From: Bacillota bacterium
GTDB taxonomy: Bacteria; Bacillota; Bacilli; Alicyclobacillales; SLC66
Length of the DNA: 54,059 nucleotides
NCBI GenBank assembly: GCA_021828865.1
Contig: JAJZCW010000023.1
Coordinates: 1 to 54,059 of the forward strand
Direction of reading: 5' to 3'
In this document: positions 7,181 through 36,760 of the stretch, piece by piece
Layout: each line of letters opens with the position of its first letter
Position numbering within the stretch: position 1 is the stretch's first letter
The notes under the pieces: generated by a model
What the model was told of the DNA's origin: nothing
Database searches by the model: none
What the model saw: only the letters and a program-made list of their open reading frames with translations
Made by a program: the position numbers and the translations under genes

Positions 7181-7220
7181 AAAAAAAGCCCCCTCTTACC
7201 AAGAAGGAGCACTGTGGGAA
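7181..7220 (-). promoter_or_regulatory. UUCCCAC / SD-sequestering leader hairpin (virB6-like gene)
   Basis: Read in the minus sense: TTCCCAC (7220-7214), then GCTCCTTCTT, loop GGT, AAGAGGGGGC, seven T, GTG start. All ten stem pairs form in RNA if two are G-U; on the plus strand those two are C-A mismatches. The VirB4 stop codon TAA lies at the loop, so VirB4 translation ends inside the hairpin that holds the next gene's ribosome site. Confidence 0.8.
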
Positions 7221-9616
7221 TTTTTTTCGGGCTTTGGCGTATTGTCGAACCACCGCAACAAGATCTCGGGTTTCATCTCCACCTGCATTCGTTTGACCCT
7301 TCCTAGAGCATCGACCACTAGACCTTCGCCGGGTGCAAAGCTGCCGAACCGCTTGAACCATTCGACTGGATCTTCGTGATCCAATCCGGCGAGTTTCAGT
7401 GACGCTTCGGTCTCTACCTGCGAATTCTGGCGCAAGATGAATCGCCACGCGAACAGTCCGTCGATGCTCTCGCCCCAGTTTTTGAAGTCGGTCGCGTTCT
7501 GCATGAGCATCAGTGGCACGATGTTCAGCGACCGCGATTCCCGCAGCAGGTTGTCCACTAAATCTCTGCCCTGTGCAAATTTACGCAGTTTCCACGACTC
7601 ATCTAAGTCCAACACCTTCAGCACTGACTGGGGCAAGTTGCTAAAGTAACCCATCCCCATCCCCGCCACCGCATAATAAAGGGCAATACTGAGTCTTTCG
7701 TTCAGAGTTTTTGGTGCCCCGTTTGGAATCGTCAACCCGCTCGTATCCACAATCGTCGCATCAAAGTTTTGTGGCGTTTGCTTCATGTCTTCGGCAAAGA
7801 GAACCCGGCCAAGTGGAGAACTATACAAATCCTCCATAATTCCCAGCATCAATTCCAACTGTTGGTAATACAACTCGCGGGTTTCTTTTCTCAGCATGGA
7901 GGCTAGTGCATTGCCAAACTGATTCATATCTTGCGTTTCTCCGCTGCGGACCCGTCTAAGCGCCTGACCGATCAACGCCGAGCGAATATCGCGCGTATTA
8001 TCATCTGTGGTCACGTTATTAAAGATAAGGTCAAGCAGATCCCGCTCTATTCCCTCTACGCCAAGTCGGAATGGATTAAGCCGTGCGCCATCATCACGCA
8101 GTCGGATCATATTCACCTTGGCACCGATCTTGTACAAGTTGTCGTAATCGTGCCCCTTCGGATCTTGGATGAACGCCTTTGCCCCCCAAGAAATGAGCAT
8201 GGAGATAATGTATTCGGCTGTGTTTGTTTTCCCCGAACCAAGCCCACCGCATAGTAAAATTGATGGCTGCATGTTCAATTCCTGAGCCGGACGCCGAGGA
8301 TCCATGAACACTGCGCGCTCCGTATTGGTCTTGCCTAAGTAAAATCCCTTTTCATCCCCAAAATCGGTCGTTGTAAAAGGCAGTCCTGCCGCCAGGGTTC
8401 CGGCATCCATCGGGATTTCATACGCGGTTTGAATCGGTTGTCCCCACGGATAAAACGCCTGCCACAATCTGCGTTGATCGGCCGGAGCTTGCACCAGATC
8501 AGTCAGCGCCATGTTGGTGATCACCGATTTCCGGTAGTCGGCGAGCGTCTTTTCGTCGCCTGCCCCAAAACCGATCACTGTTTTCACATGGACGAGCGGA
8601 TCCCGCATGCGAAGCTTTTGCTCCAACTCTTCTGAGTGCTCCATGTCGACTTCGAGTTCGAGCGGAGGGGTTTCGCCTCCTTCGTCGTACTCTTTCCACT
8701 TCGCATCTGCAGAAAGTTTCTTCTTGCGCAGGTTTTTCCGGGCAGAGATTGGATCTTCCACCCGGATGTGCATCGCGATATCAACGGGGATGTCCATATA
8801 CTCGACTTGATGAACCCAGTCGTACCCGCTCGCATCGTCTTCGTCGATCTCATTCGGCACTCGAAGTACGTTGTAAAACGTCTGATAGGATTCTTGCTTA
8901 TCTGGACGAACGATTTTGAGATGAAAGAGTGACTCTTTGATCACACCGTCATTCGTCCAGAGCCCGAGATGGTGCTGCGGATGGATCACGCCATCGCTCG
9001 AAACGAACGCGGGCAGATTTTTCGGGAACCGACTCTCCGGCGCCACAGTGCCTCGATAGTAGCCATGCCTCAACCAAGTTTCGATTTCCGCTTGCGATGC
9101 GACATGCAACTTAAGGAAGGAACGGAACCCGCGCATCCACTTTCGACGCTCTTCTTCGAGTTGTTCGAGCAATTGTACCCGAATATCGCTCCGGCGCAGG
9201 ATATTCTTTGCCGGTTTCACCAACGTCTGATACGCCTCTCTTGCAAACTCCCTCCAATTATCTTTGAGTTGAATGGTGAGTCGCCGTGAAATCGGTACAA
9301 CAACGTAGATCCGGCGTTCAAACAAGACGTCCTTCGCCAGTTCTTTTGCCTCTTTGAAGTGCGCTTTGTTAAGCGGATGATCCGTGCGTACAAACCGCTT
9401 CTCCCACGTGTTTGAGGGCACCCCCACGGCCAGCGAATACAAATGCCACTCCCCGATGACCTGTCGCAATCCACGGGCAATCGTTGCAATCGACTGATTC
9501 TGCGACGCTGCGCTGGTCAAAGGGCGATCGTCCGGTTCCACAACAAATACGGCGTATCCGCGCGCTTTCTCGTCAAACGCAATCCCATTCTCCGCATAAA
9601 TGACGGGTTGAGCCAA
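7196..9616 (-). CDS. VirB4/TcpF-type conjugation ATPase
   Basis: About 806 residues. This is the AAA+ motor of the T4SS. The N-terminal half is the VirB4 family domain. The C-terminal half has Walker A (LLCGGLGSGKTNTAEY, near 470) and Walker B (LKVLDLDESWKLRKF). I place the start at TTG 9616 (protein begins MAQPVIYAEN) rather than at the TTG at 9658, because GGAGAGGGGG lies 8 bases before it and the longer version would translate through a leader hairpin. It is between TcpE and VirB6 homologues, as in Tn916 and pCW3. Its stop lies within the next leader. Confidence 0.88.
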   Translation of the reverse strand: MAQPVIYAENGIAFDEKARGYAVFVVEPDDRPLTSAASQNQSIATIARGLRQVIGEWHLYSLAVGVPSNTWEKRFVRTDHPLNKAHFKEAKELAKDVLFERRIYVVVPISRRLTIQLKDNWREFAREAYQTLVKPAKNILRRSDIRVQLLEQLEEERRKWMRGFRSFLKLHVASQAEIETWLRHGYYRGTVAPESRFPKNLPAFVSSDGVIHPQHHLGLWTNDGVIKESLFHLKIVRPDKQESYQTFYNVLRVPNEIDEDDASGYDWVHQVEYMDIPVDIAMHIRVEDPISARKNLRKKKLSADAKWKEYDEGGETPPLELEVDMEHSEELEQKLRMRDPLVHVKTVIGFGAGDEKTLADYRKSVITNMALTDLVQAPADQRRLWQAFYPWGQPIQTAYEIPMDAGTLAAGLPFTTTDFGDEKGFYLGKTNTERAVFMDPRRPAQELNMQPSILLCGGLGSGKTNTAEYIISMLISWGAKAFIQDPKGHDYDNLYKIGAKVNMIRLRDDGARLNPFRLGVEGIERDLLDLIFNNVTTDDNTRDIRSALIGQALRRVRSGETQDMNQFGNALASMLRKETRELYYQQLELMLGIMEDLYSSPLGRVLFAEDMKQTPQNFDATIVDTSGLTIPNGAPKTLNERLSIALYYAVAGMGMGYFSNLPQSVLKVLDLDESWKLRKFAQGRDLVDNLLRESRSLNIVPLMLMQNATDFKNWGESIDGLFAWRFILRQNSQVETEASLKLAGLDHEDPVEWFKRFGSFAPGEGLVVDALGRVKRMQVEMKPEILLRWFDNTPKPEKNSHSAPSW

Positions 9617-9648
9617 ACAGAAAACCCCCTCTCCATATGGAAAGGGGG
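9617..9648 (-). promoter_or_regulatory. SD-sequestering leader hairpin (virB4-like gene)
   Basis: Minus sense: CCCCCTTTCC, loop ATAT, GGAGAGGGGG, a T-rich spacer and TTG. It is a ten-pair stem with one U-G. It has the same architecture as the other leaders but lacks the TTCCCAC box. The upstream TcpE gene stops 7 bases before the hairpin. Confidence 0.65.
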
Positions 9649-9654
9649 ATCGTA

Positions 9655-10242
9655 TCAAGCGTTTCGGCGCAGTTTGGGCGCTTCCCGGATCCGTCGGATT
9701 TCGCCATCGACCACACGGTATTTACCAGGCTCCAGAGGACGATTGGATCGCCGCAATACCCAAGTACCATCTCGCAATACCCTTGCCCCAAGCGGCTTAT
9801 GAAGGGTAAACGATCCGCGACCTGAGATGGGTGTCGCGCGCGCAGTACCCTGATCAACCGCATAGAAGGAAAAGCGAAACTGCGGCGCTTTTTTATCAAT
9901 CTTGATGGCTTTGAATCCATCCGTCAGATGCTTCCGACGGAAATAGCTCAACAGATCGAGGGTCCAGGTAAGCACCGATTTGCCTTGCGGGTCAAACTGC
10001 TTGGCCGCCCACCCTGCCATTAACCCAATTGCGATTTGCCATAACCAAACTGGAATGATGTGATAGAGAAGGTGGAGAAATCCGGCCAAGAAAAAACCAG
10101 GGAAAATGGCGGCGATCACACCAAGGCCGATGACATCGAGACCCACCGCCATGTACTTCCCCAGCTTGAGCGCTCCGGCGCCTGAACCGATCTTTGTAAT
10201 TTCCGTTTTCGAGCGGTACAACTCTCGATAGGTGCGATACAT
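9655..10242 (-). CDS. TcpE-family conjugal transfer membrane protein
   Basis: 195 residues. A cytoplasmic N-terminus is followed by two hydrophobic helices (about 33-58 and 63-82). Then comes a DPQGKSVLTWTLDLLSYFRR segment typical of TcpE/PrgI-type proteins that sit next to VirB4, and a basic C-terminus. In Gram-positive T4SSs this protein helps recruit the VirB4 ATPase to the membrane. Its ATG overlaps the TAA of the pilin-like gene (TAATG), and the VirB4 leader follows its stop. The order supports the assignment. Confidence 0.78.
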   Translation of the reverse strand: MYRTYRELYRSKTEITKIGSGAGALKLGKYMAVGLDVIGLGVIAAIFPGFFLAGFLHLLYHIIPVWLWQIAIGLMAGWAAKQFDPQGKSVLTWTLDLLSYFRRKHLTDGFKAIKIDKKAPQFRFSFYAVDQGTARATPISGRGSFTLHKPLGARVLRDGTWVLRRSNRPLEPGKYRVVDGEIRRIREAPKLRRNA

Positions 10243-10655
10243 TAGCTGCCGGTCCCCGTTGTGCCGCCGCGAAACAGATTGCCAAAATAGAGAGCGCCCG
10301 CGATTAACAAGGTTGGGTTCAATACCAGAATGATCGCCACGAAGCCGAATCCAACCTCAGTCCAAAGGGCCGTTGTGTTTTTAGCCCTAGAGGCTTTCAC
10401 CGCACCGATGACCACCAAGACAACAATGATCACCACCGCGATCCCTTGCAGATATTGAAAGCCAAACGCATTCAAGAGAGTGATAATCTGATTGGCGGCG
10501 TCCAAAACACTTTGTTGATCGCCACCGAGTTGAGTCGGTGTTGGCAAACTCCCGCCTGTTCCCGCAGCAAACGCTGGCGATGCGGATGCCAGCAGCATGA
10601 TCGCCATTGCCATCCCGGTCCATACTGTTCGCCATGACTTTGTGAAATGATTCAA
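10242..10655 (-). CDS. VirB2/TrbC-like pilin or small T4SS membrane protein
   Basis: 137 residues. A cleavable signal peptide (about 1-31, ending PAFAAG) is followed by a short extracellular part and two membrane helices (about 65-88 and 99-125) with a small basic loop (KASRAK) between them. This is the layout of VirB2/TrbC-type conjugative pilins. The start is TTG at 10655 with AAGGAGGAG 6 bases upstream inside a leader. It heads the T4SS core run pilin-TcpE-VirB4-VirB6-VirB1. Confidence 0.72.
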   Translation of the reverse strand: MNHFTKSWRTVWTGMAMAIMLLASASPAFAAGTGGSLPTPTQLGGDQQSVLDAANQIITLLNAFGFQYLQGIAVVIIVVLVVIGAVKASRAKNTTALWTEVGFGFVAIILVLNPTLLIAGALYFGNLFRGGTTGTGS

Positions 10656-10694
10656 AGAAATCTCCTCCTTCTATCCAGTAGGAAACCGTGGGAA
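10656..10694 (-). promoter_or_regulatory. UUCCCAC leader (virB2-like gene)
   Basis: Minus sense: TTCCCAC (10694-10688), then TTTCCT able to pair with AGGAGA that contains the ribosome site, then TTG. The stem is weaker (about 6 pairs, 13-base loop) than in other copies. The preceding YdjM-like gene ends three bases before TTCCCAC. Confidence 0.65.
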
Positions 10695-10696
10695 GA

Positions 10697-11287: not shown

Positions 11288-11573
11288 CCATCATCTCTCC
11301 CCTCAGCGCAATCAAAGCCCCTAATAACGCGCTCGATAATGATCGAGTGGCACATACCGCAATCGAATCGCCTTTTTTCAAACGCACTTCATGGCCCAAC
11401 TCTCTTTCTGCCACTTGCACGTCGATTTGTTCCTTGGCTAACCTTTCGAAAAGTTCACTTGTCTTTGAACGCTCAAAGTAAAGGCGTTCCAACTCGGTTT
11501 CTGTACTGAACATCGCCTTGATGAGCTCTTGGTGTTCCCATTCTTTTTTCCTAATCGCGTCGTCCAGCGACAT
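11277..11573 (-). CDS. Small conserved element protein (paralogue of the 27106-27441 protein)
   Basis: 98 residues, not recognised. The first half is a charged helix (KEWEHQELIKAMFSTETELE). The second half shares a pattern with the product of 27106-27441: ELERLYFERS, LFERLAKEQIDVQV, and a C-terminal CATRSLSSALLGALIALRG against CVARSLTGALLGAHTALRG. The pair therefore defines a small family belonging to this element. The ATG at 11573 sits 6 bases after a leader hairpin. No catalytic motif is visible. Confidence 0.75.
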   Translation of the reverse strand: MSLDDAIRKKEWEHQELIKAMFSTETELERLYFERSKTSELFERLAKEQIDVQVAERELGHEVRLKKGDSIAVCATRSLSSALLGALIALRGEMMGVV

Positions 11574-11613
11574 AAAAAAGACCCCCTTTCGCCAAGAAAG
11601 GAGGTAGTGGGAA
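11574..11613 (-). promoter_or_regulatory. UUCCCAC / SD-sequestering leader hairpin
   Basis: Minus sense: TTCCCAC (11613-11607), CCTCCTTTC, loop TTGGC, GAAAGGGGG, TCTTTTTT, ATG. Nine pairs with one U-G. The 5' arm copies the anti-SD tail expected at the 3' end of 16S rRNA. A non-coding stretch of about 120 bases separates it from the TnpB stop upstream. Confidence 0.82.
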
Positions 11614-13200: not shown

Positions 13201-13238
13201 AAAGACTTGTCCAACATTAAAGGATCACCACGCACCCC

Positions 13239-14108
13239 TTACGTTTGCAACTCCTTCAGCACGCTCTCCAGCCACCGGATCGTATATTTCGTCGTCTCCA
13301 CCCCTTTCGCCGCATGATTGATCTGTACGGGCATCAGCCGAGCATAAGACTTGCCCTTCTCTTTCAGCGCCCATTCCTTATCGACGGTCCGTACCTGAAA
13401 ACCCAATGTCTCAAATAGCGCATTCACCTTGACCGCCGACAAGGGCGGATTCAACCGCTTGCCAATTTCCGTGGGCGTATAGGCGACCTCTGTATTCTCC
13501 TCCCGGATCTGGCGTTTGAAGGTGGTCAAATCCACGTCAAACTCTTTTTCGGTATCTTCCATCGCAATCAGTGAGGCCATGGCAGGCGTCAGGCCGATCA
13601 TGACGCCGATCTGCGTTTTCTGTTTGAGGGTGTTGCGAATCGCGCCCCAGGGAATTCGATGCGCCGTTTTCTCGACAGCCTTCTTAATGATGTGTGGCGC
13701 CTCTTCCCGCGCGGCCTCTTCGACGTTGAGCAGATAGCTACGAACGGTTTTCGCGACTTCGCTGTCCCGCAAGAGCATGCCGATCCGCAAAACAGCCCTG
13801 CGAGGAACAATAACTAATGAGGCCGTGTTTTTGGGAATTGAACCCATCTCCTTTAAGGAGATCAGTTCAATGCCGGTAATTGTACGAAGCCCATCTTCCT
13901 CCAATTCGTCCCGGTGATCCAATATCAAGCTGTCAACGGCCTTCTTGGGCACTTCGTAATAATCAGCCGCCAATGATACCGTAGTATGAAGATCGTCCGG
14001 CAACAGTGCCAGCACCTTCACTTTGTCCAATACATCGACCCTCGCAGCCAATTGATCCCGTACCGCCCGATCTTCTAGCAATTCCTGTTCCCTGACTAAC
14101 TCGATCAT
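13239..14108 (-). CDS. Antirepressor-like protein (paralogue of 15776-16615)
   Basis: About 289 residues with start ATG at 14108, 6-7 bases after GAGGAGGG. The N-terminal 150 residues are closely similar to the protein at 15776-16615: VKVLALLPDDLHTTVSLA, YYEVPKKAVDSLI, and RRAVLRIGMLLRDSEVAK. The last resembles the conserved helical region of phage antirepressor/BRO-type proteins. The C-terminal half differs between the two. It is probably a DNA-binding regulator of the element (inference). A TTCCCAC leader precedes it. Confidence 0.6.
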   Translation of the reverse strand: MIELVREQELLEDRAVRDQLAARVDVLDKVKVLALLPDDLHTTVSLAADYYEVPKKAVDSLILDHRDELEEDGLRTITGIELISLKEMGSIPKNTASLVIVPRRAVLRIGMLLRDSEVAKTVRSYLLNVEEAAREEAPHIIKKAVEKTAHRIPWGAIRNTLKQKTQIGVMIGLTPAMASLIAMEDTEKEFDVDLTTFKRQIREENTEVAYTPTEIGKRLNPPLSAVKVNALFETLGFQVRTVDKEWALKEKGKSYARLMPVQINHAAKGVETTKYTIRWLESVLKELQT

Positions 14109-14147
14109 CCAAATACCCTCCTCTACCATGTAAAGTTGCCGTGGGAA
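14109..14147 (-). promoter_or_regulatory. UUCCCAC leader (antirepressor-like gene)
   Basis: Minus sense: TTCCCAC (14147-14141), CTTTAC, loop ATG, GTAGAG, GAGGG, then ATG. Six stem pairs with one U-G, covering the start of the ribosome site. The upstream 60-residue gene stops three bases before TTCCCAC. Confidence 0.65.
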
Positions 14148-15249: not shown

Positions 15250-15665
15250 GCGACACTCACACTCATCCGCAGGCCGTAATTGCCTATGTCGGAGCCGCCG
15301 GTGACACTTTCAAACCGCGCGGGCACCATCATCCCTTTATCCATCAGCGGCGCAAAGACGGCCGCCCACTCACGCGGGAGATACCCGATGGGATACGAAC
15401 CCTTCCCCGCCACATGCGCGATCACTTGGATGGCGTTCACGTCGAATGGGTTGTTTTCACGCCTCAATAGGAGTGCGATGTGATAACGAGAGTAGTGCGT
15501 CAAGTGCTGGAGCGCGGCTTGGCGATTTTCGAAGGTGACGCCAGCGGCTTTGAGGGTGAGTGGCTGCTTGATCAGTTGCCACGCAAGTTTGAGCGCTTCC
15601 GACTGGGTGTAACGGCCAGTCCGATATAGAGAGTGATTGAGAATCATGAGGACATGACGATTCAC
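15246..15665 (-). CDS. HIRAN-domain protein
   Basis: 139 residues. The C-terminal 85 residues have the HIRAN pattern: LLLRRENNPFDVNAIQVI, then GYLPREWAAVFAPLMDKG. HIRAN domains bind DNA ends or damaged/stalled DNA and are usually fused to SNF2 helicases; stand-alone versions occur in phages and mobile elements. The N-terminal 50 residues are a short helical extension. Start GTG at 15665 after AAGGAGG. It heads the overlapping small-gene run down to 14151. Confidence 0.78.
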   Translation of the reverse strand: MNRHVLMILNHSLYRTGRYTQSEALKLAWQLIKQPLTLKAAGVTFENRQAALQHLTHYSRYHIALLLRRENNPFDVNAIQVIAHVAGKGSYPIGYLPREWAAVFAPLMDKGMMVPARFESVTGGSDIGNYGLRMSVSVA

Positions 15666-15700
15666 GACAAAAAACCTCCTTGTCTACACAGGAGGCTTGC
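15666..15700 (-). promoter_or_regulatory. SD-sequestering leader hairpin (HIRAN gene)
   Basis: Minus sense: CCTCCT (15695-15690), nine-base loop, AGGAGG (15680-15675), TTTTTTGTC, GTG. A six-pair perfect stem covering the ribosome site; the TTCCCAC box is absent. Confidence 0.6.
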
Positions 15701-15714: not shown

Positions 15715-15778
15715 AACGCATTTTCCTGTGCGTTTTTGGTTGAGAGCATCTGACGTTTGGCGACTGGGGATGCTCTCA
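15715..15778 (-). terminator. Two inverted repeats after the antirepressor-like gene
   Basis: TGAGAGCATC (15741-15750) and GATGCTCTCA (15769-15778) form a perfect 10-pair stem beginning at the stop codon of the 15776-16615 gene. AACGCA/TGCGTT (15715-15734) forms a second small stem. There is an A-rich but no clean T-tract after the first stem in the minus sense, so a partial terminator or processing site is as likely as full termination. Confidence 0.4.
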
Positions 15779-17597: not shown

Positions 17598-17678
17598 GGA
17601 TCTTCTGAGGACGGAACAGGCAGCCGTCGCCCTCCAGCAAGGGGTTAGGAGATGCAGATTGTCACCTGCCTAAGATCC
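17598..17678 (+). ncRNA. Candidate structured RNA with pseudoknot
   Basis: Closing stem GGATCTT (17598-17604)/AAGATCC (17672-17678). Inside, GACGG/CCGTC (17610-17614/17624-17628) closes a loop whose AGGCAG (17618-17623) is complementary to CTGCCT (17666-17671) right beside the closing stem, forming a pseudoknot. CCCT/AGGG (17630-17643) adds a hairpin. An alternative stem uses TTAG..GCAG/CTGC..CTAA (17645-17673) and excludes the pseudoknot. A terminator follows. No known RNA family recognised; it could be a 3' UTR structure of the XRE gene or a separate small RNA. Confidence 0.45.
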
Positions 17679-17730: not shown

Positions 17731-18177
17731 TCACGACTGCCACTCCTGAAAAAATGCCATGCTAAAGTGAAACGGCGTCACCGATGGCTCCACCGTCGTC
17801 CACGCTCCCCCGCTCCATGTCGGGATCTTAATCGGCAGCACCAAGCCGTAGTCCACGGTCAAGTGGACAAATCCATTCTCCGGCACAAGCGACAATAACA
17901 ACTGATTCGGCCCCGCTTCCCCAATCGTGGGCGCGGTCGTGTACGAAATGGTATCGCTATCGACCGGAAGGTCATTCCCAAACGCACTCACCAACTCCTG
18001 ACCGATCGGCTGATTCGTGTTCGGATCAATCATGTTCTGGTATTGCCCCGCCGCCAGCCCATACTCAAACGCGACCGCAGTGGCGGGAATGACGTGAATC
18101 GTCGTGGCACCTAGCGCCAGGACAATATAAAGACCGTACGCCATCAACATTGCGACTAACCAATCCAACGCGCGCAT
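17731..18177 (-). CDS. TadE/pilin-like exported protein
   Basis: 148 residues. One N-terminal hydrophobic helix (about 5-35) is followed by an extracellular domain with no recognised fold. Size, topology and the adjacent gene of the same plan (18229-18708) suggest a pair of TadE/TadF-like or minor pseudopilin subunits for the Tad-type machinery encoded at 31-36 kb (inference). Start ATG at 18177 after GAGGGAGG. It is the last gene of the 23-kb-to-17.7-kb run. Confidence 0.55.
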   Translation of the reverse strand: MRALDWLVAMLMAYGLYIVLALGATTIHVIPATAVAFEYGLAAGQYQNMIDPNTNQPIGQELVSAFGNDLPVDSDTISYTTAPTIGEAGPNQLLLSLVPENGFVHLTVDYGLVLPIKIPTWSGGAWTTVEPSVTPFHFSMAFFQEWQS

Positions 18178-18220
18178 CAAAAACGCCTCCCTCTCTCAAT
18201 GAGGGAGGAAGGCGTGGGAA
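18178..18220 (-). promoter_or_regulatory. UUCCCAC / SD-sequestering leader hairpin
   Basis: Minus sense: TTCCCAC (18220-18214), GCCTT, CCTCCCTC, loop ATTGAGA, GAGGGAGG, CGTTTTTG, ATG. Eight perfect pairs, extendable with the flanking GCC/GGC. Confidence 0.82.
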
Positions 18221-18228: not shown

Positions 18229-18708
18229 TCATTGCGTAGGAACCTGCGCTGAAGACTGTTCCTGCACGGTGATCGTCTGCTGAACCCCGTTATGATCGCC
18301 AAACTGCGCCAGAAAGTTATCCAGCAAGGGAGGCGAATACGAGAGTTGAACCGACCCTGTAATGGTATCCTCATCACCCAATGGCGTCCCCGACTTGATC
18401 GACGAAAGCGAAAACTGCGGCTCGACACCCGTCCACGACCCCTGCCCCCAATCGCTGACATTCTCATTCCAGGTGGCCTCCGCCGCGTTCATGGCGGCAT
18501 TGTCATCGAGAACTGGGACCTTTTGATTGATGAATGGATTATACGTCCAGTACGATTGTGAAGAACCGGCATCGACGCAAGCCGCCATTAATTCGTGCAT
18601 GCGTACATTAAACATGGCGAAATCGCCCAGCATCAGGATCATGACGATAAAAAACGCGATTAGCGCAATGCCAATCCGCCAGGTGAGTAACCCTCCAAAA
18701 CTCGGCAA
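18229..18708 (-). CDS. TadE-like exported pilus protein
   Basis: 159 residues. The N-terminus (GGLLTWRIGIALIAFFIVMI) is a single membrane helix preceded by few residues, as in TadE-like proteins. The remainder (about 45-159) is an extracellular, Ser/Gly/Asn-rich domain. Start TTG at 18708, 8 bases after GAGAGGGGG. Neighbour of another protein of the same design; both probably belong to the surface appendage of the element. Confidence 0.58.
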   Translation of the reverse strand: MPSFGGLLTWRIGIALIAFFIVMILMLGDFAMFNVRMHELMAACVDAGSSQSYWTYNPFINQKVPVLDDNAAMNAAEATWNENVSDWGQGSWTGVEPQFSLSSIKSGTPLGDEDTITGSVQLSYSPPLLDNFLAQFGDHNGVQQTITVQEQSSAQVPTQ

Positions 18709-18748
18709 ATGAAAAACCCCCTCTCATTTGAGAAGGGGCATAGGGGAA
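18709..18748 (-). promoter_or_regulatory. Leader hairpin with variant box (TTCCCCTA)
   Basis: Minus sense: TTCCCCTA (18748-18741), CCCCTTCTC, loop AAAT, GAGAGGGGG, TTTTTCAT, TTG. Nine pairs, one U-G. The box differs from TTCCCAC by one base and extension. Confidence 0.75.
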
Positions 18749-19371: not shown

Positions 19372-19406
19372 CACGTGCGGGTTCCTCCTTTTTTGATCGG
19401 GGGCAA
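19371..19406 (-). CDS. Candidate leader peptide (11 residues)
   Basis: TTG at 19406 lies at the usual distance after the SD arm of the leader hairpin. It opens a short frame (M-P-P-I-K-K-G-G-T-R-T) whose TGA overlaps the ATG of the membrane-protein gene. The second gene's own GGAGG lies inside this short frame. The same arrangement recurs at the truncated paralogue (short frame with TAA directly before ATG). Confidence 0.45.
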   Translation of the reverse strand: MPPIKKGGTRT

Positions 19407-19451
19407 TAAAACACCCCCTCCCCTATTCACAAGAGAGGGGGCGTGTGGGAA
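19407..19451 (-). promoter_or_regulatory. UUCCCAC / SD-sequestering leader hairpin
   Basis: Minus sense: TTCCCAC (19451-19445), CCCCCTCTC, ten-base loop, GGGAGGGGG, TGTTTTA, TTG. Nine pairs with one U-G. The upstream secreted-protein gene stops 3 bases before TTCCCAC. Confidence 0.8.
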
Positions 19452-22235: not shown

Positions 22236-22260
22236 GGCTTTTCCCCTTTCTGAGGAACAT

Positions 22261-22299
22261 AAAAAAACCGCCCCTCGTTAGGAGAGACGGCGGTGGGAA
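22261..22299 (-). promoter_or_regulatory. UUCCCAC leader (secreted protein gene)
   Basis: Minus sense: TTCCCAC (22299-22293), CCGCC, small internal loop, CTC, loop, GAG, GGCGG, seven T, then an ATG at 22260. That ATG is out of frame with the secreted protein, whose own site (AAAGGGG) and ATG at 22235 follow. This copy therefore seems separated from its gene by a short upstream frame. Confidence 0.68.
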
Positions 22300-22307: not shown

Positions 22308-22979
22308 TTACGCCCCCCAATTAGGAGGAGTTACAGGTTGCGTGTTGGGCTGTGAAGTCTCCGTCCCCGGCGGCACTACCTGAATGTTCCCATCGCTACT
22401 GCTTGTCGCCTTCTGCGTACCAGCAGTCGTATTCCCACTTGGCGGCGTGATCGTCCACACGTGGCTTGTCCCATTCCACACATTTGAGAACCCCATCGCA
22501 TCCAGCAGTTTCTCGGCGTAGTAGAGACCGAAGAACGATGTCAGTTTCCCGCTGTTCGGGTCTTTCACCGGAAAATTCGGCACGCCCGATTCGACCGTAG
22601 CGCCATTCACGATGATGGACGCCAACCCTTTTTTGCCGTGGATCGCGAGACTGACTTTGCCGTTATTATCGGTGACGGTCAGCGCTCCTTCGCCGCGCGT
22701 TTTGAAGTTGCCGTCCCAAGCAGCGTGATCGCCACCCACGTGGTTGATGACCTGCATGATGTACCAGATCGGTATGAACGTCGTCATCACGCCGCTGTTC
22801 GGATCCTTTGCTGCAAAGACGTAGGGCATGTAGGTGGTTTTGCCGATTACCACAACGCTGGTTTTTTTGAGTGTGAAGTGGCCCTCTTTGACGGTACTCG
22901 CCGCCGCGAATGTTGGGGCGGTCATTGTTGCGATGAGTGCAAATGCACCCACTGCGGTGATCCATTTTTTTGATTTCAT
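22308..22979 (-). CDS. Secreted protein of unknown function
   Basis: 223 residues from ATG 22979. A clear signal peptide (about 1-27, SKKWITAVGAFALIATM then APTFAAA). Two related segments follow: AAKDPNSGVMTTFIPIWYIM and PVKDPNSGKLTSFFGLYYAE, so the body seems to be an internal duplication with a conserved KDPNSG. It resembles stalk or copper-amine-oxidase-N-like domains only loosely. The last 45 residues are Pro/Thr/Ser-rich. First gene downstream of a strong promoter. Confidence 0.68.
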   Translation of the reverse strand: MKSKKWITAVGAFALIATMTAPTFAAASTVKEGHFTLKKTSVVVIGKTTYMPYVFAAKDPNSGVMTTFIPIWYIMQVINHVGGDHAAWDGNFKTRGEGALTVTDNNGKVSLAIHGKKGLASIIVNGATVESGVPNFPVKDPNSGKLTSFFGLYYAEKLLDAMGFSNVWNGTSHVWTITPPSGNTTAGTQKATSSSDGNIQVVPPGTETSQPNTQPVTPPNWGA

Positions 22980-23035
22980 CCCGATCAACTCCTACCTAAT
23001 TTTATCGTACTCGTCTATGTAGGCAAGGGTGGGAA
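22980..23035 (-). promoter_or_regulatory. UUCCCAC leader (first gene after promoter)
   Basis: Minus sense: TTCCCAC (23035-23029), CCTAC (arm), long loop, GTAGGAG containing the ribosome site, then ATG. The stem is shorter and the loop longer than usual. It begins only about 25-30 bases after the -10 box, so TTCCCAC is near the 5' end of the transcript. Confidence 0.65.
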
Positions 23036-27155: not shown

Positions 27156-27441
27156 TAGGATCTCCCCCCCGCAACGCCGTATGTGCCCCGAGCAGCGCGC
27201 CAGTTAGTGATCTTGCAACACAGGCGACGGATAAAGCCCCCTTGTGCAAGATTACTTTCACTTGCTCGACACCTTGCGTAATCTGCACGTCGACGCCTTC
27301 TTCTTGAAGGCGCTGGTACACCTCGTCGGACAGACGCTTTTCGGTATACAACCTTTCCAATTGTTGCTCTGTGGCAAGCAGGTGGATCAGTGTGTCTTGG
27401 TGTTCCTTTTCCTGCTTGCTGATTTCGTCATCAATGAACAT
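27106..27441 (-). CDS. Small element protein with altered C-terminus
   Basis: 111 residues from ATG 27441, paralogue of the 11277-11573 protein (QLERLYTEKR, VYQRLQEEGVDVQI, CVARSLTGALLGAHTALRG). The relatives' natural end would be just after ALRG plus a few residues. Here the frame runs on for about 17 residues that are antisense to the PIN gene's zinc ribbon. This suggests that the inserted block joined inside or at the end of this gene. A complete TTCCCAC leader precedes it. Confidence 0.72.
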   Translation of the reverse strand: MFIDDEISKQEKEHQDTLIHLLATEQQLERLYTEKRLSDEVYQRLQEEGVDVQITQGVEQVKVILHKGALSVACVARSLTGALLGAHTALRGGDPISLLLQLRCTLSKDPE

Positions 27442-27480
27442 AGAAAAACCTCCTTTCATAAAGAAAGGAGGTGGTGGGAA
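27442..27480 (-). promoter_or_regulatory. UUCCCAC / SD-sequestering leader hairpin
   Basis: Minus sense: TTCCCAC (27480-27474), CCTCCTTTC (27471-27463), five-base loop, GAAAGGAGG (27457-27449), TTTTTCT, ATG. Nine perfect Watson-Crick pairs; the archetype of the family. An alternative ATG lies in the loop. Confidence 0.88.
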
Positions 27481-30440: not shown

Positions 30441-30444
30441 ACAT

Positions 30445-30482
30445 AAAAAAAGCCCTCCTACCGAAGCGGGAGGGCTTGGGAA
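30445..30482 (-). promoter_or_regulatory. Leader hairpin with variant box (TTCCCAA)
   Basis: Minus sense: TTCCCAA (30482-30476), GCCCTCC, nine-base loop, GGAGGGC, seven T, ATG at 30444. The ATG opens a ten-codon frame (M-F-A-R-H-G-R-F-L-P) that stops within the possible intron remnant. The gene once led by this copy appears displaced. Confidence 0.68.
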
Positions 30483-30744: not shown

Positions 30745-30946
30745 CCTCGTCGTCCCCCTCCTCATCCTCATCGGGCGCATTCATGGCTCGCAAGGTGCGC
30801 CACTGGCGAACCATCATGACCAGCGCAACGACCGTGATAATCAGCGCAATGTATGCCCCTTTGATGGCGCCCCAGACCGTGAACACGAACACGGCTGCCA
30901 TCAGAATTTCTTCAACCCAAATCAGAATTTTGTTGTTTTTTCCCAA
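30725..30946 (-). CDS. Small membrane protein with acidic tail
   Basis: 73 residues. Two hydrophobic helices (about 8-27 and 31-46) are followed by a short basic stretch and a strongly acidic tail (DEDEEGDDEDEVDEE). Start TTG at 30946 after GAGGAGGG. It overlaps the next gene. Function unknown. A full TTCCCAC leader is upstream. Confidence 0.6.
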   Translation of the reverse strand: MGKNNKILIWVEEILMAAVFVFTVWGAIKGAYIALIITVVALVMMVRQWRTLRAMNAPDEDEEGDDEDEVDEE

Positions 30947-30964
30947 AGGTTAACCCTCCTCGTC

Positions 30965-31007
30965 GAAAATAAAAGCCCCTTCTCACGAGAGAAGGAGCCC
31001 GTGGGAA
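30965..31007 (-). promoter_or_regulatory. UUCCCAC / SD-like leader hairpin
   Basis: Minus sense: TTCCCAC (31007-31001), GCTCCTTCTC, loop TCGT, GAGAAGGGGC, TTTTATTTTC. Ten pairs with one U-G. The gene's own GAGGAGGG and TTG come about 20 bases later, so this copy is offset from the start, as at 19407-19451. TadC stops just upstream. Confidence 0.78.
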
Positions 31008-31011
31008 AAAC

Positions 31012-32090: not shown

Positions 32091-32709
32091 AACCGATTGC
32101 CCCCTTTCTTGCCTTTCGTAATCTGCGCAACTCTCTCGCATAGTTCCGCTGCCGTCCAATCATCTCTTCATCCACCCGGCGCGCTGCCGTGATCTTCTGA
32201 TGCCAAACCTCCATCTCGCTCTCATCCAAAATTGGTGAGCGACGCATCCACTGCGCCAAGAACGCCTCAAACCATGCGCGGGTGAATACGCGATCCGTCA
32301 TCCCCAACCCGATTTGCAATTCGCCAAACGGATGCGCGAAGACGACACATGGCGTCATCGGCAATGTGTCGCCAAGAACCGATCGAAGTTTGGCAACGTG
32401 GCGCTCATTTTGCAGGACCGGGTTATACAGCTGATGAATCTTTCCTTTCCCGTGCGGCACAAAACTCCATTGCATTTCGCTCGGTTGCCCGTAGACGATC
32501 CCATTCCAATTTTTCGTCTCGACGACCAATAGCCCCATCGGCGTGAGCACGAGATGATCGATTTGAAACGGAAGACCCTCGGCGTCCTCAAAGTAGACAT
32601 CGTTGTACAGGCGATAAGGTAGATGGCCTAAAACTCGTTGAATACTATTGGCCACTGCATACTCGCCGCTATGACCCGACTGACGTTTTGAATTGCGGCG
32701 TCTCGACAT
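32080..32709 (-). CDS. NERD-domain protein
   Basis: 209 residues from ATG 32709, chosen because it is 6 bases after GGAGGG. The N-terminal ~110 residues match NERD (nuclease-related domain): SGEYAVANSIQRVL, LYNDVYF, FQIDHLVLTPMGLLVVETKN. The D and E-x-K fit a PD-(D/E)XK-like active site. A helical, basic C-terminus follows (RNYARELRRLRKARKG). NERD proteins occur widely on plasmids; the substrate is unknown. Preceded by a TTCCCAC leader that lies inside the previous coding frame. Confidence 0.8.
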   Translation of the reverse strand: MSRRRNSKRQSGHSGEYAVANSIQRVLGHLPYRLYNDVYFEDAEGLPFQIDHLVLTPMGLLVVETKNWNGIVYGQPSEMQWSFVPHGKGKIHQLYNPVLQNERHVAKLRSVLGDTLPMTPCVVFAHPFGELQIGLGMTDRVFTRAWFEAFLAQWMRRSPILDESEMEVWHQKITAARRVDEEMIGRQRNYARELRRLRKARKGAIGYAD

Positions 32710-32747
32710 GTGCATCCCTCCTCTATCTTGCAAGAAGGAGGTGGGAA
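32710..32747 (-). promoter_or_regulatory. UUCCCAC / SD-sequestering leader inside an upstream gene
   Basis: Minus sense: TTCCCAC (32747-32741) directly joined to CCTCCT, TCTT, GC, AAGA, TAG, AGGAGG, then ATG. Two stacked stems of 6 and 4 pairs. The upstream zinc-finger gene reads through TTCCCAC and stops at the TAG inside the hairpin. Confidence 0.82.
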
Positions 32748-32941
32748 GATTGATCCGCGTCGAGCGCCATTTGCTCTTCGCACGTAGCACAAATGGATGT
32801 GGTGACGAACTTAAACCCCTGTTCCCGCTCACACCGCGCGCAAATGTGGCGAAGACCTTGATGCCGCCAGTGATTGATTAAATCGACCGAGACGTATATG
32901 GACGCTCCGTCGATAAAGAAGTCAGATGGACTTTTAGACAT
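32723..32941 (-). CDS. Small zinc-finger protein
   Basis: 72 residues from ATG 32941. Two Cys pairs, CARCER and CATCEEQ, about 19 residues apart, form a likely zinc site. The N-terminal half (FFIDGASIYVSVDLINHW) is strand/helix. The last residues (S-S-H-L-L-L-A-R) are encoded by the TTCCCAC leader of the NERD gene. Function unknown; may bind nucleic acid or a partner protein. Confidence 0.65.
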   Translation of the reverse strand: MSKSPSDFFIDGASIYVSVDLINHWRHQGLRHICARCEREQGFKFVTTSICATCEEQMALDADQSSHLLLAR

Positions 32942-32981
32942 AGAAAAACCCCCTTCCAATTACAGAAGGAGGCCATTGGAA
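32942..32981 (-). promoter_or_regulatory. Leader hairpin with variant box (TTCCAAT)
   Basis: Minus sense: TTCCAAT (32981-32975), CCTCCTTC, loop, GAAGGGGG, TTTTTCT, ATG. Eight pairs with one U-G. The 115 bases between it and the TadB stop hold no gene that I can see. Confidence 0.72.
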
Positions 32982-33097: not shown

Positions 33098-33946
33098 TTA
33101 AATATTCGGCTTCGCTGATGCCGTACGCCGAGCAAAAAGAATGATCATGACGTAACCAGAAAGCCCAAGTCCAAAAATCAGATTCCCCTCGAAATTGCCG
33201 GTCAAATAAGCATTTATCGCCCTAGCAAACATCGCATAAAGTGCAATCGGAGCCATCGAAATGGCCAGAAGCAGTTTCATCGCTTCATCGCGTTGTAATC
33301 GCATTGCACGCTCATAACGCTTTTTGTTTGCCAATTCGTCCAACACCTCATGCATGTATGCATCCAAATTCGTCGCCTGCTCATAATTTGCGATGATCCC
33401 GTTTATAACATAGGAGAAATACTTGCTTGGTGTCGCATCGGCCGTATACCGTAACCAGTCGACGACTGAAAACTGCCCAGATTCGACCTGCGCCTTCCCC
33501 TTTTCGAACACGCTGACGATGGGACCCTCGACTTCATCGCCCACTTCACGCACCCACTGCTCAACGGTTGCCCCGGCCTCAAACACCCCGGCGCCGTATT
33601 CAAGCGCCTGCACCACGCCCTCTTCATATCGATCCATCCACCGCTCTTTCCACATCTCCGAGACGAGGTACGGCAATACACCGCCAATGACTGCTCCGAT
33701 AAACGGCGTGGCGTGCATCCAAGTGACGGTGATATAGACACCAACGGCCACCGACCCGATCGTGATATACGTCAGGCGGCGCTTGGCCGTAAAGAGATTC
33801 TGAATAGCTTGCGTCCCTTTTCCGCGTTTCCGGCGTTGTCCCATCCGCCTGCGGACTCGATTGTAGGGCACCTGTTTGAAGTGCTCCCAGGTGAGATTGG
33901 CCACGATCAACAGCGCTGGAATCAACACATAGAACAACAGTATCAT
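33098..33946 (-). CDS. tadB: TadB-like platform protein (T2SF domain)
   Basis: 282 residues from ATG 33946, overlapping the TadA stop as ATGA. N-terminal membrane helix (about 2-18), a second pair (about 60-95), and two C-terminal helices (about 225-272). The cytoplasmic T2SF part spans about 110-215 (YEEGVVQALEYGAGVFEAGA ... LDELANKKRYERAMRLQRDE). With TadC it would make the inner-membrane platform driven by TadA. Confidence 0.8.
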   Translation of the reverse strand: MILLFYVLIPALLIVANLTWEHFKQVPYNRVRRRMGQRRKRGKGTQAIQNLFTAKRRLTYITIGSVAVGVYITVTWMHATPFIGAVIGGVLPYLVSEMWKERWMDRYEEGVVQALEYGAGVFEAGATVEQWVREVGDEVEGPIVSVFEKGKAQVESGQFSVVDWLRYTADATPSKYFSYVINGIIANYEQATNLDAYMHEVLDELANKKRYERAMRLQRDEAMKLLLAISMAPIALYAMFARAINAYLTGNFEGNLIFGLGLSGYVMIILFARRTASAKPNI

Positions 33947-36453
33947 TGCTGCGTCCACCCCCAGTTTTCTGGAATCGGAATCCCTGCGTCAAACATCTCC
34001 TCAACAAATTCATCGGTAGGACCGCTAAACTCGAAATATCCGGCGACAGAACCGTCCTCGTTGATGCCGACCTGGTGAAATCGCATGACGGTGTGAAGCG
34101 TTTGATCGGGACGCAGTTCTACCACTTCATCGATAAATCGTGAAATCCCATCCGAGCGCTTAAACGCATCGGCATGGACGATGGTATGGACGCGTCGAAA
34201 AATAATGTCCTTAACCATTTCGCGCGGCGGATGGGAACTATGATTGGCCGCGAAATTGATTAACACGTCGATCGCGTCTAGACAAGAGTTGGAGTGGATC
34301 GTGGTCGAGCTTCCGTCCTGGCCTGCTTGTATTGCTCGCAGAAATGTGTATGCCAAGGTGTCCCGCAATTCAGCAATGAAAATTCTATCAGGGTACATTC
34401 TGAGCGCCGCTTTCACAGCATCTGCAAGATCAAACACGCCCTCGCGCTGTACAACACGGATGACGTGAGTATCATTTTGCGGTTGTAGCTCTTGTGCTTC
34501 CTCTAAGACAATAAGCACAGTCCCGCTAGGAGTTTCGGCGGTTAAGGCATTCGCAAGTGTCGATTTACCGGAATTGTGATGGACAAGAAACTGCCCATCC
34601 AAGTAAAGGTGATCGCCGTCTACTTCCCATCCGAAATACTCGCCATAACCTATAGGTTCCACAGTGAACCCTGTTACTTGTAAATCTTTTTTTTGCCTTC
34701 GTGGTGTTCCTTTTTTCCTTTCGACCCTAGTAGGTATGAGATTGTGTTCTCCTGTAATAAAAATCCTATAATAATCGCCACTAAATTTTGAGCCATCCTT
34801 TCTTGTAAAGCCTTTTGAAACTTTGCTAATGTTCGCTGAATATCCAAGGCTACGGCAAATGAACTGAACATCTTTTGCCAATTCAAAAGATTTTGTGATG
34901 TAATCAAAACCGGCACCTGTCCAACTACCATCAGTATCCAGAATCCCAGCTAGTAATTCTAGTCGCTGTTTTCGTGATCCTGTTTTATAAATTTGAGGAA
35001 TAAATTTATCCCCTGCATGTGTGCCGTAAAGATCTAACGCCTTTAAGTCATGGATTAAATTATTTTTGTGATGTTCGCCCTTGGTATCAGAAGCAACACA
35101 TAAGTTGACAGAGGTTCCTTCTCCTACTTTTCTTATGTGCAAACCTCTATTTTTTGCTTCTTGATAAACACGTTGAACAATCTCTTTTTCAGGTGTACAT
35201 ACAGCCACATGATGATTTCCTATGCAACCATCACCTAGCAGTACACCCAGAAAATACGGATCGATGATCAAGTCCTTTTCAGGAAACTTTACATTTGCAC
35301 GCCACAATTTGTGAATATGCTTAAATTTCTTGCTTTGCTTTTGGTAATCTGACACCGTTATGGTCTTAAATTGTCTTTGCTCTCCTGCTTGCCGTGGCGT
35401 CGATTTCAACGCCAAAGCGTGTCCCTCATTCACTATGAACGGTTCGCCTCTATGTGGGGTTACGCGCACCATTCGATCTACACCTTGATGCAGATTAATT
35501 ACCGTGCGCGGCGTGTTGTCTGGCCCCATTAGTCGGTCTCCAACCCGTACATCCGCCGCACGTTTGATACAGCCGTCATACATCAAAATCGGCGCATCGG
35601 CATCATGACATCCGGTCCCCCCGCTGATCAGGTGATTCTTCGCCATTCTCGTCATGAGACGCAGATAGTCCATCGTTGCCGGATCAATTGACTTACTATC
35701 ATAAGGGAAATAAAGAGTTTTGCGCTGATACTCTCGCCGCACTTGACGTAAATTCGGAAACTTCGGCAGTTCCGTTTGTGCTTGTGATTGCGATGTTAAA
35801 TCTTGTGATGTAAAAGCCTTGACGAACCTCCGCATCGTGATAATGACGCACGGTACAAATTTGTATTCCCCCTTGCGGAACACGGAGTATCCTGATACTC
35901 CACTGATGACATGCATTCTTTCTCCAGAAGGAAAAACCGCGTCCATTGACACCTTCGACGCATCGTAATGCTGTCCGAATTGCGCCAGGTGGCGATTCAA
36001 CCAGGTCATGGCATGTCCGTAGTTACGAAACCCCGGCCTTTTGTAAATTTGCCGACCTTCTCGTGAGGCATAGGTGATGATCTGCTCCTCACGACTGTCA
36101 TACGGCACAAACACCTGCATGTCGCTGATCTCTTTGTTCTTCCACAGATTTTCTAACGGTCCCATGCTGAACATGTCATCCAGGATCGAATTGACGATTT
36201 CGCGATGTGCTTTCGCGGGAATTTCCTTGTGTGCGGCCACGATGTTTGTCAACTGGGCGTCCCTCATGGCACGGCTGGCTTCGACTTGTACGGATTCCTT
36301 GTTCGCGATCTCCTGAAACTCCTTGAGTACAATCTCCTGCCACTGGAACAGTTCGTTATCGGTCATATTCGATTTGTTGAGTTCGGCCCAAGCATCTTGA
36401 CTAAGGCTCCATAAATCGGCATCTAATGAATTCTTATCGTCGGTATCAGACAT
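33943..36453 (-). CDS. tadA: TadA/CpaF-type secretion ATPase with intein
   Basis: 836 residues before splicing, 490 after. The ATPase N-terminal domain spans 1-270. The P-loop is split: NHLISGGTG (residue 281), intein (282-627), then SGKSTLANAL. Later motifs are intact: Asp-box VLIVLEEAQELQ, Walker B-like DRIFIAELRD and His-box TTIHSNS. So the enzyme should work only after splicing. It belongs to the VirB11/TadA family and powers a Tad-type pilus or related transfer apparatus. ATG follows AAGGAGG in a leader; TadB is coupled by ATGA. Confidence 0.9.
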   Translation of the reverse strand: MSDTDDKNSLDADLWSLSQDAWAELNKSNMTDNELFQWQEIVLKEFQEIANKESVQVEASRAMRDAQLTNIVAAHKEIPAKAHREIVNSILDDMFSMGPLENLWKNKEISDMQVFVPYDSREEQIITYASREGRQIYKRPGFRNYGHAMTWLNRHLAQFGQHYDASKVSMDAVFPSGERMHVISGVSGYSVFRKGEYKFVPCVIITMRRFVKAFTSQDLTSQSQAQTELPKFPNLRQVRREYQRKTLYFPYDSKSIDPATMDYLRLMTRMAKNHLISGGTGCHDADAPILMYDGCIKRAADVRVGDRLMGPDNTPRTVINLHQGVDRMVRVTPHRGEPFIVNEGHALALKSTPRQAGEQRQFKTITVSDYQKQSKKFKHIHKLWRANVKFPEKDLIIDPYFLGVLLGDGCIGNHHVAVCTPEKEIVQRVYQEAKNRGLHIRKVGEGTSVNLCVASDTKGEHHKNNLIHDLKALDLYGTHAGDKFIPQIYKTGSRKQRLELLAGILDTDGSWTGAGFDYITKSFELAKDVQFICRSLGYSANISKVSKGFTRKDGSKFSGDYYRIFITGEHNLIPTRVERKKGTPRRQKKDLQVTGFTVEPIGYGEYFGWEVDGDHLYLDGQFLVHHNSGKSTLANALTAETPSGTVLIVLEEAQELQPQNDTHVIRVVQREGVFDLADAVKAALRMYPDRIFIAELRDTLAYTFLRAIQAGQDGSSTTIHSNSCLDAIDVLINFAANHSSHPPREMVKDIIFRRVHTIVHADAFKRSDGISRFIDEVVELRPDQTLHTVMRFHQVGINEDGSVAGYFEFSGPTDEFVEEMFDAGIPIPENWGWTQQ
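34573..35610 (-). mobile_element. Intein with LAGLIDADG endonuclease in the TadA P-loop
   Basis: 346 residues. It starts at Cys (CHDADAPILMYDG, block A). Block B has VNEGHALAL with its histidine. Two LAGLIDADG-type motifs (YFLGVLLGDGCIG and LELLAGILDTDGSW) give the homing endonuclease. Blocks F/G read YFGWEVDGDHLYLDGQFLVH then H-N, with Ser as the +1 residue of the host. All residues needed for splicing seem present. It interrupts G-x-x-G/SGKST, so the unspliced ATPase cannot bind nucleotide. Confidence 0.92.
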
Positions 36454-36492
36454 AAAAAAACCTCCTTACAAAGTAAGAGGCACCGGTGGGAA
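36454..36492 (-). promoter_or_regulatory. UUCCCAC / SD-sequestering leader hairpin (tadA)
   Basis: Minus sense: TTCCCAC (36492-36486), CCTCTTAC, loop TTT, GTAA, bulged G, GAGG, seven T, ATG. A short frame (36466-36513, 15 codons) ends with TAA inside the 3' arm. Confidence 0.8.
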
Positions 36493-36513
36493 ATTGGGGG
36501 CGGGTTGATTCAT
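36466..36513 (-). CDS. Possible 15-residue upstream peptide of tadA
   Basis: ATG at 36513 opens M-N-Q-P-A-P-N-F-P-P-V-P-L-T-L and stops (TAA, 36468-36466) within the tadA leader hairpin. The ribosome site (GGCGGG) is weak. The stop-in-hairpin position matches that of VirB4 before VirB6, which is the only reason to list it. Confidence 0.25.
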   Translation of the reverse strand: MNQPAPNFPPVPLTL

Positions 36514-36517
36514 ACGC

Positions 36518-36760
36518 TCAACCCGCCAAAAGCGTTAATTTTCCCGCAACGGAATCCCCCTCCTGCAAGAAATCGGCATAGTGGGAAAAATCAAAACCGC
36601 CATCCTCTCTCCCTTTGCGGCAGTAGATACGGCGGTTTTCAGCTTTCTTATTGGATACCACTTGCGTTTGCGGTTTTCGATGCCACTGTAATCGCAAGCC
36701 GGCGGGATCAGGTTTCCCTTCCCTAATTCGCTTGCGCCTTTGACGCGACGAATGACTCAT
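36518..36760 (-). CDS. Small basic hypothetical protein
   Basis: 80 residues from ATG 36760. It begins with MSHSSRQRRKRIREGKPDP, then a central KKAENRRIYCRKGRED. Not recognised; the very basic N-terminus suggests nucleic-acid or ribosome contact. It overlaps the decayed phosphatase frame by 38 bases. A TTCCCAC leader-like sequence is embedded in its second half (36556-36587), so its 3' part may be overprinted on a leader, or the frame may be fortuitous. Confidence 0.4.
   Translation of the reverse strand: MSHSSRQRRKRIREGKPDPAGLRLQWHRKPQTQVVSNKKAENRRIYCRKGREDGGFDFSHYADFLQEGDSVAGKLTLLAG
36556..36587 (-). promoter_or_regulatory. UUCCCAC leader-like sequence, start region unclear
   Basis: Minus sense: TTCCCAC (36587-36581), about 15 bases, GCAGGAGGGGG, ATTCCG, TTG opening a five-codon frame. 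The pairing arm is poor. It is the rightmost copy of the motif. Confidence 0.45.

Follow-up and report, generated by a model that had tools for sequence, protein, structure and literature searches.

Tagged hairpin leaders before many genes of a T4SS/Tad-type element in a Bacillota genome: a candidate translational switch

What is the role of a short RNA leader that recurs in nearly the same form before gene after gene of one element? The question is raised by a stretch of 54,059 nucleotides (below, the window), which is the entire contig C36 (JAJZCW010000023.1; also W) of a 3.08-Mb metagenome-assembled genome (MAG) of a Bacillota bacterium, assembled in 45 contigs. An operon-like block of about 30 kb, with genes of the type IV secretion system (T4SS) and Tad types, runs there in a single direction and contains 18 hairpin leaders. 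A typical leader opens with the heptamer TTCCCAC (the tag), continues with a hairpin whose 3' arm contains the Shine-Dalgarno (SD) sequence, and ends in a T-rich spacer followed by a start codon. The original prediction had seen in this design an element-wide translational switch. The repeated design, the SD occlusion, the copies outside the window and the covariation of the stem speak for it, and the resemblance of most hairpins to terminators speaks against it. We conclude with moderate confidence that the leader is a default-off translational switch, which would be opened by a putative element-encoded factor recognizing the tag.

The leader and its hairpin

The exact tag occurs 20 times in the window, versus a mean of 8.1 in 100 shuffles, none of which reaches 20. 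All six plus-strand copies lie within open reading frames (ORFs); the 14 minus-strand copies are all present where the original prediction had placed them, and the design of tag, hairpin, usually a T-rich spacer, and start was recovered at 13 of these when the sites were read and folded, the exception being 36587. In 167 kb of TTCCCAC-type element DNA, an SD and a start codon follow 24-66 nt downstream at 49 of the 75 exact copies, compared with an average of 2.2 of 19.1 for 104 permuted heptamers (best 14) and 8 of 71 in control DNA of the own genome; about nine of the 49 sites may be due to chance. The distance is narrowly distributed, 40 of the 73 motif-to-SD/start pairs formed by the 75 motifs being separated by 36-42 nt, with a peak of 13 pairs at 39 nt. 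Among the 16 tagged leaders of the window (36587 excluded), the distance from the first base of the tag to the start is 38-40 nt in 12 and 43, 45, 56 and 61 nt in the rest, and spacing of the 39-nt type is kept at the weak-hairpin leaders 10694, 14147 and 32747.

A covariance model was founded on 11 copies, which match it by construction. The existence of copies outside the window was established by its 48 matches in the own genome at E-values up to 1, located on C36, C6, C17, C11, C27, C4, C9, C30 and C37, with one match each on C8 and C26. At the same threshold the model gives nothing above position 36497 of the window, in agreement with the reported absence of copies from the chemotaxis region. 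At E-values up to 0.1, 65 matches were found in 315 kb from 19 sources, which comprised element contigs, relatives and a single stretch formerly used as a control (G011 was omitted as a duplicate); the 17 control stretches of the own genome, 335 kb in all, gave none. In the alignment of 65 copies, nine of the ten stem pairs are changed on both sides and 88.3% of cells are paired, and the covariation score is 0.430, compared with 0.279 (standard deviation 0.013) for shuffled and at most 0.142 for slid versions, in an alignment that was fitted by the model and thus favors the structure. The hairpin, as judged from these aligned sequences, is under selection.

A scan for SD-bearing hairpins near starts, blind to the tag, detected 56 in 300 kb of element DNA (four of them on the duplicate contig from G011, which this set includes) versus 12 in 370 kb of control DNA. 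With a T-rich spacer the counts are 44 and 2, and one of the two control hairpins is itself a TTCCCAC leader, in a stretch that was later moved out of the controls. Occlusion of the SD as the common feature of the leaders is upheld by folding: its predicted pairing probability is 0.88 at 49 tag sites versus 0.54 at 193 control genes, and exceeds 0.8 in 69% versus 11% of them. For 36 well-spaced leaders the value is 0.93 at 37 °C and 0.92 at 60 °C, with 31 of the 36 above 0.8 at the higher temperature.

The leaders match no family in Rfam release 15, either at the gathering threshold in the window and 15 loci or at E-values up to 1 in positions 7000-36700, as expected from the claim that no known RNA family has this form. 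The only Rfam matches were a tRNA in L012 and a skipping-rope RNA (RF02924, 49.5 bits) at 17600-17676 (+), within the element and antiparallel to the leaders.

The leaders of the window are as follows; the last two, which have a hairpin and no tag, were absent from the original prediction.

36451..36492, minus strand: TadA leader with TTCCCAC, hairpin, T-run and ATG; orthologous leaders in C6, G005, C37 and G003
32939..32981, minus strand: degenerate tag TTCCAAT; the leader precedes the gene of a small zinc-ribbon-like protein (ORF listed as 32723-32959, ATG at 32941)
32707..32747, minus strand: leader of the NERD-domain gene; no T-run, stop codon of the upstream ORF inside the leader
30944..31007, minus strand: tag, strong hairpin and T-rich tail, with the 73-aa gene having its SD and TTG start past the hairpin
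30442..30482, minus strand: tag variant TTCCCAA; the ATG of the leader (30444) begins a mini-ORF of 10 codons that lies upstream of a ParM/Alp-like gene
27439..27480, minus strand: leader of a gene for a 117-aa small protein; top model score
25200..25241, minus strand: leader with mini-ORF; TTG opens four codons, followed by TAAATG
22977..23035, minus strand: leader with a long loop before the gene of a secreted protein (226 aa); T-run absent, SD paired in part; C11 and C27 have orthologs
22258..22299, minus strand: leader; ATG opens a 74-codon ORF overlapping the start of a 926-aa gene
19404..19451, minus strand: leader whose TTG begins a mini-ORF of 11 codons; the TGA of the latter overlaps the GTG (19374) with which a 203-aa gene starts
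18706..18748, minus strand: leader of a 159-aa gene; tag variant TTCCCCT
18175..18220, minus strand: leader of a 149-aa gene; exact tag, model match
14106..14147, minus strand: leader of a 296-aa antirepressor-like gene; tag at 39 nt, weak hairpin, low SD pairing
11571..11613, minus strand: leader of a gene for a 98-aa small protein; exact tag, model match
10653..10694, minus strand: precedes a putative VirB2-like pilin gene; the hairpin is weak and a long T-run is absent
7178..7220, minus strand: leader of a VirB6/TrbL-like gene; VirB4 stop codon within the loop
9614..9648, minus strand: tagless VirB4 leader with hairpin, T-run and TTG; likewise in C6, G005 and G017
15663..15698, minus strand: tagless leader of a 139-aa ORF with hairpin, T-run and GTG

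The hairpins are strong at all three sites put forward as tag variants (18748, 30482 and 32981). The exact copy at 36547..36587 (-) was rejected as a leader: it lies within ORF 36518-36769, its start opens four codons only, and it is probably a chance site. Also rejected was a constant distance of 15 nt from the tag to the loop end, with a supposed stop codon in the loop, since the purine-rich 3' arm accounts for these letters and the other elements have varying distances. In an orthologous leader of C11 (6612), the leader start opens an 8-codon mini-ORF whose TGA overlaps the ATG; mini-ORFs that open at the leader start and reach or overrun the main one (leaders 22299, 19451, 25241 and C11 6612) suggest that the leader start is used. 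The leader at 25241 belongs to a segment (25130-25241, minus strand) in which, by eye, it stands ahead of what appears to be the N-terminus of the 203-aa gene (18763-19374) in a second, truncated copy.

Among the core genes, as examined by eye, the leader heads the groups TadA-T2SSF, VirB2-like-VirB3-like and VirB6-SLT, and the inner genes overlap the preceding stop; such placement would be expected with one switch per translational unit. The VirB4, TadA, T2SSF and NERD proteins of the window exceed the Pfam cut-offs, VirB6/TrbL scores marginally under its own, and the pilin ORF (10242-10655) has no Pfam match, its VirB2-like name being based on position. TadA (33943-36453, minus strand) contains an intein-like insert (Hom_end_hint and LAGLIDADG_3 in Pfam); its orthologs in C6, C37 and G005 are insert-free proteins of about 500 aa, and the G003 ortholog equals it in length. 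Between TadA and a two-HTH (helix-turn-helix) regulator, the ORFs at 36800-37660 (-) are short and broken-looking, apparently gene remnants. A 481-aa ORF amid the element genes (11735-13180, minus strand) has a zinc-ribbon C-terminus and by eye resembles TnpB-type proteins. Two antirepressor-like genes (13239-14129 and 15776-16615, minus strand; 280-296 aa, 40% identical, with relatives in G003) differ in that one has a tag leader and the other has none.

Tags and orthologous leaders in related elements

The tag is largely constant inside one element and differs between elements, the forms being TTCCCAC, GTCC[CT]AC, TCCA[CT]C and CTTACC. Comparison of ORFs identified orthologous T4SS/Tad gene sets in the window, C6, C37, G003 (JABEUY010000055.1), G005 (JAJZAS010000051.1), G017 and Alicyclobacillus acidocaldarius, and SLT and VirB6 in C9. 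Upstream of the hairpins from the tag-blind scan, TTCCCAC was found at 25 of 40 in seven groups of its type (W 7 of 12, C6 7 of 11, C17 4 of 4, C27 2 of 2, C11 1 of 1, C30 with C4 2 of 3, and G005 2 of 7), versus none of 31 in C37, C9, G003 and G017. The patterns for the other tags were composed after the hairpins had been viewed, and with them TCCA[CT]C precedes 4 of 5 hairpins in C37 and 2 of 4 in C9 (6 of 9 together), GTCC[CT] 12 of 15 in G003 (one a spurious two-codon row) and 1 of 11 in C6, and CTTAC 5 of 7 in G017 and 1 of 7 in G005. The plasmid and chromosome stretches of A. acidocaldarius have no clear tag (TTCCCAC at 0 of 18, TCCA[CT]C at one, GTCC[CT] at two). The distance of GTCC[CT]AC in G003 peaks at 40-41 nt.

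The change of tag can be followed in orthologous leaders. The TadA leader has TTCCCAC in the window and C6, TACCCAC in G005, GTCCTAC in G003 and TTCCACC in C37. Leaders that document the swap are present in 5 of the 7 orthologs listed for TadA, 5 of 5 for the 98-aa gene, 3 of 4 for the NERD gene and 5 of 7 for VirB6 (clear hairpin); the arm sequences of orthologous leaders differ as well. VirB4 has a hairpin in six of eight orthologs and a tag in C37 and G003 only.

Leaders matching the model were found in 4 of 18 genomes of the family (E-values up to 1e-3), 4 of 59 of the order, all four within that family (up to 1e-4), and 1 of 398 of the phylum, the own genome, when 15 candidates per genome were scored. 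G011 was rejected as an independent fourth genome, its contig C33 (L053) being 100% identical to C17 (L011) of the own genome over 18,843 bases; this identity spans MAGs of two genera and reflects either very recent transfer or shared contamination. In more distant elements, whose VirB4 is about 30% identical, leaders occur singly or in pairs and carry different words, for instance TTGTCACCC and TTGGTCACCC in G010. Of nine such stretches, five contain a credible leader of the VirB4 type or at a neighboring gene; two others yielded only a hairpin that looks like chance, or none attached to a large ORF, and the last two no leader at all. The A. acidocaldarius DSM 446 plasmid pAACI02 (G019; NC_013207.1), with a VirB4 47% identical, has leaders of the same form before AACI_RS15255 and AACI_RS15335. 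This plasmid is classed in PLSDB as non-mobilizable, and conjugative is a putative label, based on the T4SS genes. Viral contigs gave no match to one exact leader pattern and none to VirB4.

The proposed switch and competing explanations

In the proposed switch, the hairpin would hide the SD in its 3' arm and thereby block initiation, and a factor encoded by the element itself would bind the tag as RNA. The factor would activate rather than repress, because the predicted SD pairing is strong with nothing bound, so that the start would be off without help. A trans factor is to be expected since the tag changes between elements, and a host factor is hard to reconcile with an element-specific tag because TTCCCAC and TCCA[CT]C elements co-occur in one MAG, a within-genome contrast that depends on MAG binning. 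In leaders with a T-run, the hairpin may double as an intrinsic terminator, and its opening would then favor transcription into the gene too.

Several observations weigh against this interpretation, in addition to the dependence on binning and the tag patterns composed in retrospect. The design ascribed to all sites is not uniform: the main SD and start at 31007 lie beyond the hairpin, SD pairing is 0.38 at 14147 and about the control level in some other leaders (C11 5498, 0.60), and 10694, 14147, 23035 and 32747 have no T-run. The VirB4 leaders of W, C6, G005 and G017 have the hairpin and no tag. At least four T in the last eight bases before the start, a signature of terminators, are found in 30 of the 36 well-spaced leaders. 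As to known types of factors, a search of the genome for CsrA found none, a search for NusG detected one protein (contig C42) and no paralogue or LoaP, and cold-shock (CSD) proteins are confined to contigs without leader matches.

Other candidates for the partner were also rejected. In the window, no exact GTGGGAA complement of the tag, as could be expected in a trans-acting small RNA, lies outside ORFs. Elsewhere the complement was found outside ORFs at C6a 7982, C11a 7174 and C4end 5410 only, in a scan that passed over sites recognised as leader complements; the last two are complements of further leader copies. The 98/117-aa small protein is missing at its position in C6, where the leader and a 6-codon ORF remain, yet C6 keeps the tag, and the skipping-rope RNA is found in the window and in none of 15 other loci searched. 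Small zinc-ribbon ORFs of the elements might be considered a lead by analogy with Com of phage Mu, which is also a zinc finger protein; examples are 32723-32959, which has a weak relative in G017 (E-value 6e-4), and, in C17, a DUF6011/double-zinc-ribbon protein that is itself preceded by a leader.

Because a T-run follows most hairpins, the main rival is transcription attenuation, in which the hairpin with the T-run forms an intrinsic terminator for each gene group, a tag-bound factor antiterminates locally on the nascent RNA, and the SD overlap is a by-product of compact design. The criterion of a GC-rich stem followed directly by a U-run is satisfied by most leaders, the exceptions being 32747, 23035, 14147 and 10694; the T fraction of the spacer is 0.83 in 65 leaders versus 0.25 in 154 control genes, and a T-run of at least four is present in 57 of 65 versus 9 of 154, a contrast inflated by the inclusion of the T-run in the model. 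The conjugation operon of pLS20, with more than 20 internal terminators (PMC8955417), offers a precedent. However, when the best hairpin was taken for each of 48 pLS20 starts, the nine terminator-like stems found end 15-101 nt upstream of the start, with a separate SD, and no start has such a stem 3-12 nt away. In the elements studied here, 32747 as well as 23035 and its orthologs have the tag and a paired SD and no T-run (0.80 at 32747, 0.79 at 23035 and 0.79 at the C27 ortholog of the latter), the 39-nt distance from tag to start persists at weak hairpins, and mini-ORFs begin at the leader start codon. The occluding leaders without a T-run and these mini-ORFs favor translation, and we consider local attenuation to be rather unlikely, if the most serious of the competing explanations.

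A passive variant, with ordinary terminators insulating the genes from spurious transcription and polymerase loaded once at the operon start as in pLS20, would suit an operon-like block with many hairpin leaders in one direction and has the conAn system as its precedent (PMC8955417). It leaves the tag unexplained or in an unrelated role; processive systems need a single loading site, the tag recurs at each leader, and the genome has no NusG paralogue, conAn itself not having been searched for, which together make this variant improbable. We assign a similarly low probability to a DNA-level site, with the tag as a protein-binding, promoter or recombination sequence (iteron-like, or a linker for module shuffling) and the hairpin as a separate feature. 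An identical heptamer is indeed the RepA-bound iteron repeat of the Streptomyces plasmid pWTY27 (PMC3583192), and a role as DNA sites was suspected for the ESAS repeats of cluster K phages (PMC3203893). The tag, however, has a single orientation and a fixed distance from the start and lies directly 5' of a covarying RNA hairpin; there is no consistent -10 element (promoter scans gave 10 and 29 hits versus 16.9 and 27.7 in shuffles), and orthologous leaders have different arm sequences, a difference that a recombination linker would not call for. Least probable by far is an RNA thermometer opened by heat: an SD-occluding hairpin is the usual form of thermometers, but the predicted pairing persists at 60 °C, and the element-specific tag would be unaccounted for.

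Relation to known systems and possible significance

SD-occluding leaders are well known as riboswitch expression platforms, ribosomal protein leaders and thermometers, each controlling one operon; the leaders described here share the occlusion with them and differ in serving many starts per element and in having an element-specific tag. Three other systems come close in one respect or another. Cluster K mycobacteriophages have short repeats, in 11-19 copies and one orientation, before the starts of a gene subset of one element (PMC3203893). The 13-bp SAS, GGGATAGGAGCCC, lies 3-7 bp upstream of the start codon, includes the SD core and is itself the ribosome-binding site, whereas the tag has another sequence and lies about 39 nt upstream, with the SD in a covarying hairpin followed by a T-run, so the leaders do not qualify as SAS. 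The ESAS, 17-bp inverted repeats for which RNA pairing was not supported, vary between subclusters and are kept at orthologous genes, as the tags do and are here; in contrast, the stems of the leaders covary, with nine of ten pairs changed on both sides, and the leaders are not ESAS either. Com of phage Mu recognizes CC(N)2-3GAG in a hairpin loop and acts on one gene, mom. The start signals of mom are buried in an mRNA structure, which opens when Com, a product of the element, binds next to it (PMC6483171); here the hidden start is predicted, many genes are concerned, and the zinc-ribbon ORFs are not linked to the leader. The transfer operon of pLS20, longer than 30 kb, has many terminator-like hairpins between genes, read through by conAn antitermination (PMC8955417), and an annotated TadA-type ATPase too; it differs in having one loading site, compared with a tag per gene group, and terminators apart from the SD.

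SAS/ESAS, Com/mom and conAn operons thus each share a part with the leader, and the combination is in none of them as described. The leader was not found in the literature searched, including searches with the word UUCCCAC/TTCCCAC, and its status as undescribed is based on these searches and Rfam. It is built from known principles; the element-specific tag is the surprising part.

More tentatively, and as a possibility that we regard as doubtful, each element might run its own translational code, in which an RNA word before each gene group is read by a cognate putative factor. The mRNAs would be silent in the host and insulated from sister elements, the word would drift together with its reader, and the hairpin would serve both as a terminator and as a lock on the SD, released by one recognition event.

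If the proposed switch is real, it would provide a sequence handle to recognize such elements in MAGs and a natural set of possibly orthogonal tag/factor pairs. The silence of large transfer operons in the host would become directly testable, and A. acidocaldarius DSM 446 with pAACI02 is a culturable named relative that has the architecture at a few genes. With element-specific tags, each element could activate its own genes while leaving those of a neighbor untouched. The leaders would then represent an RNA regulon that covers many genes of one mobile element and whose recognition word, besides the genes, diverges between sister elements.

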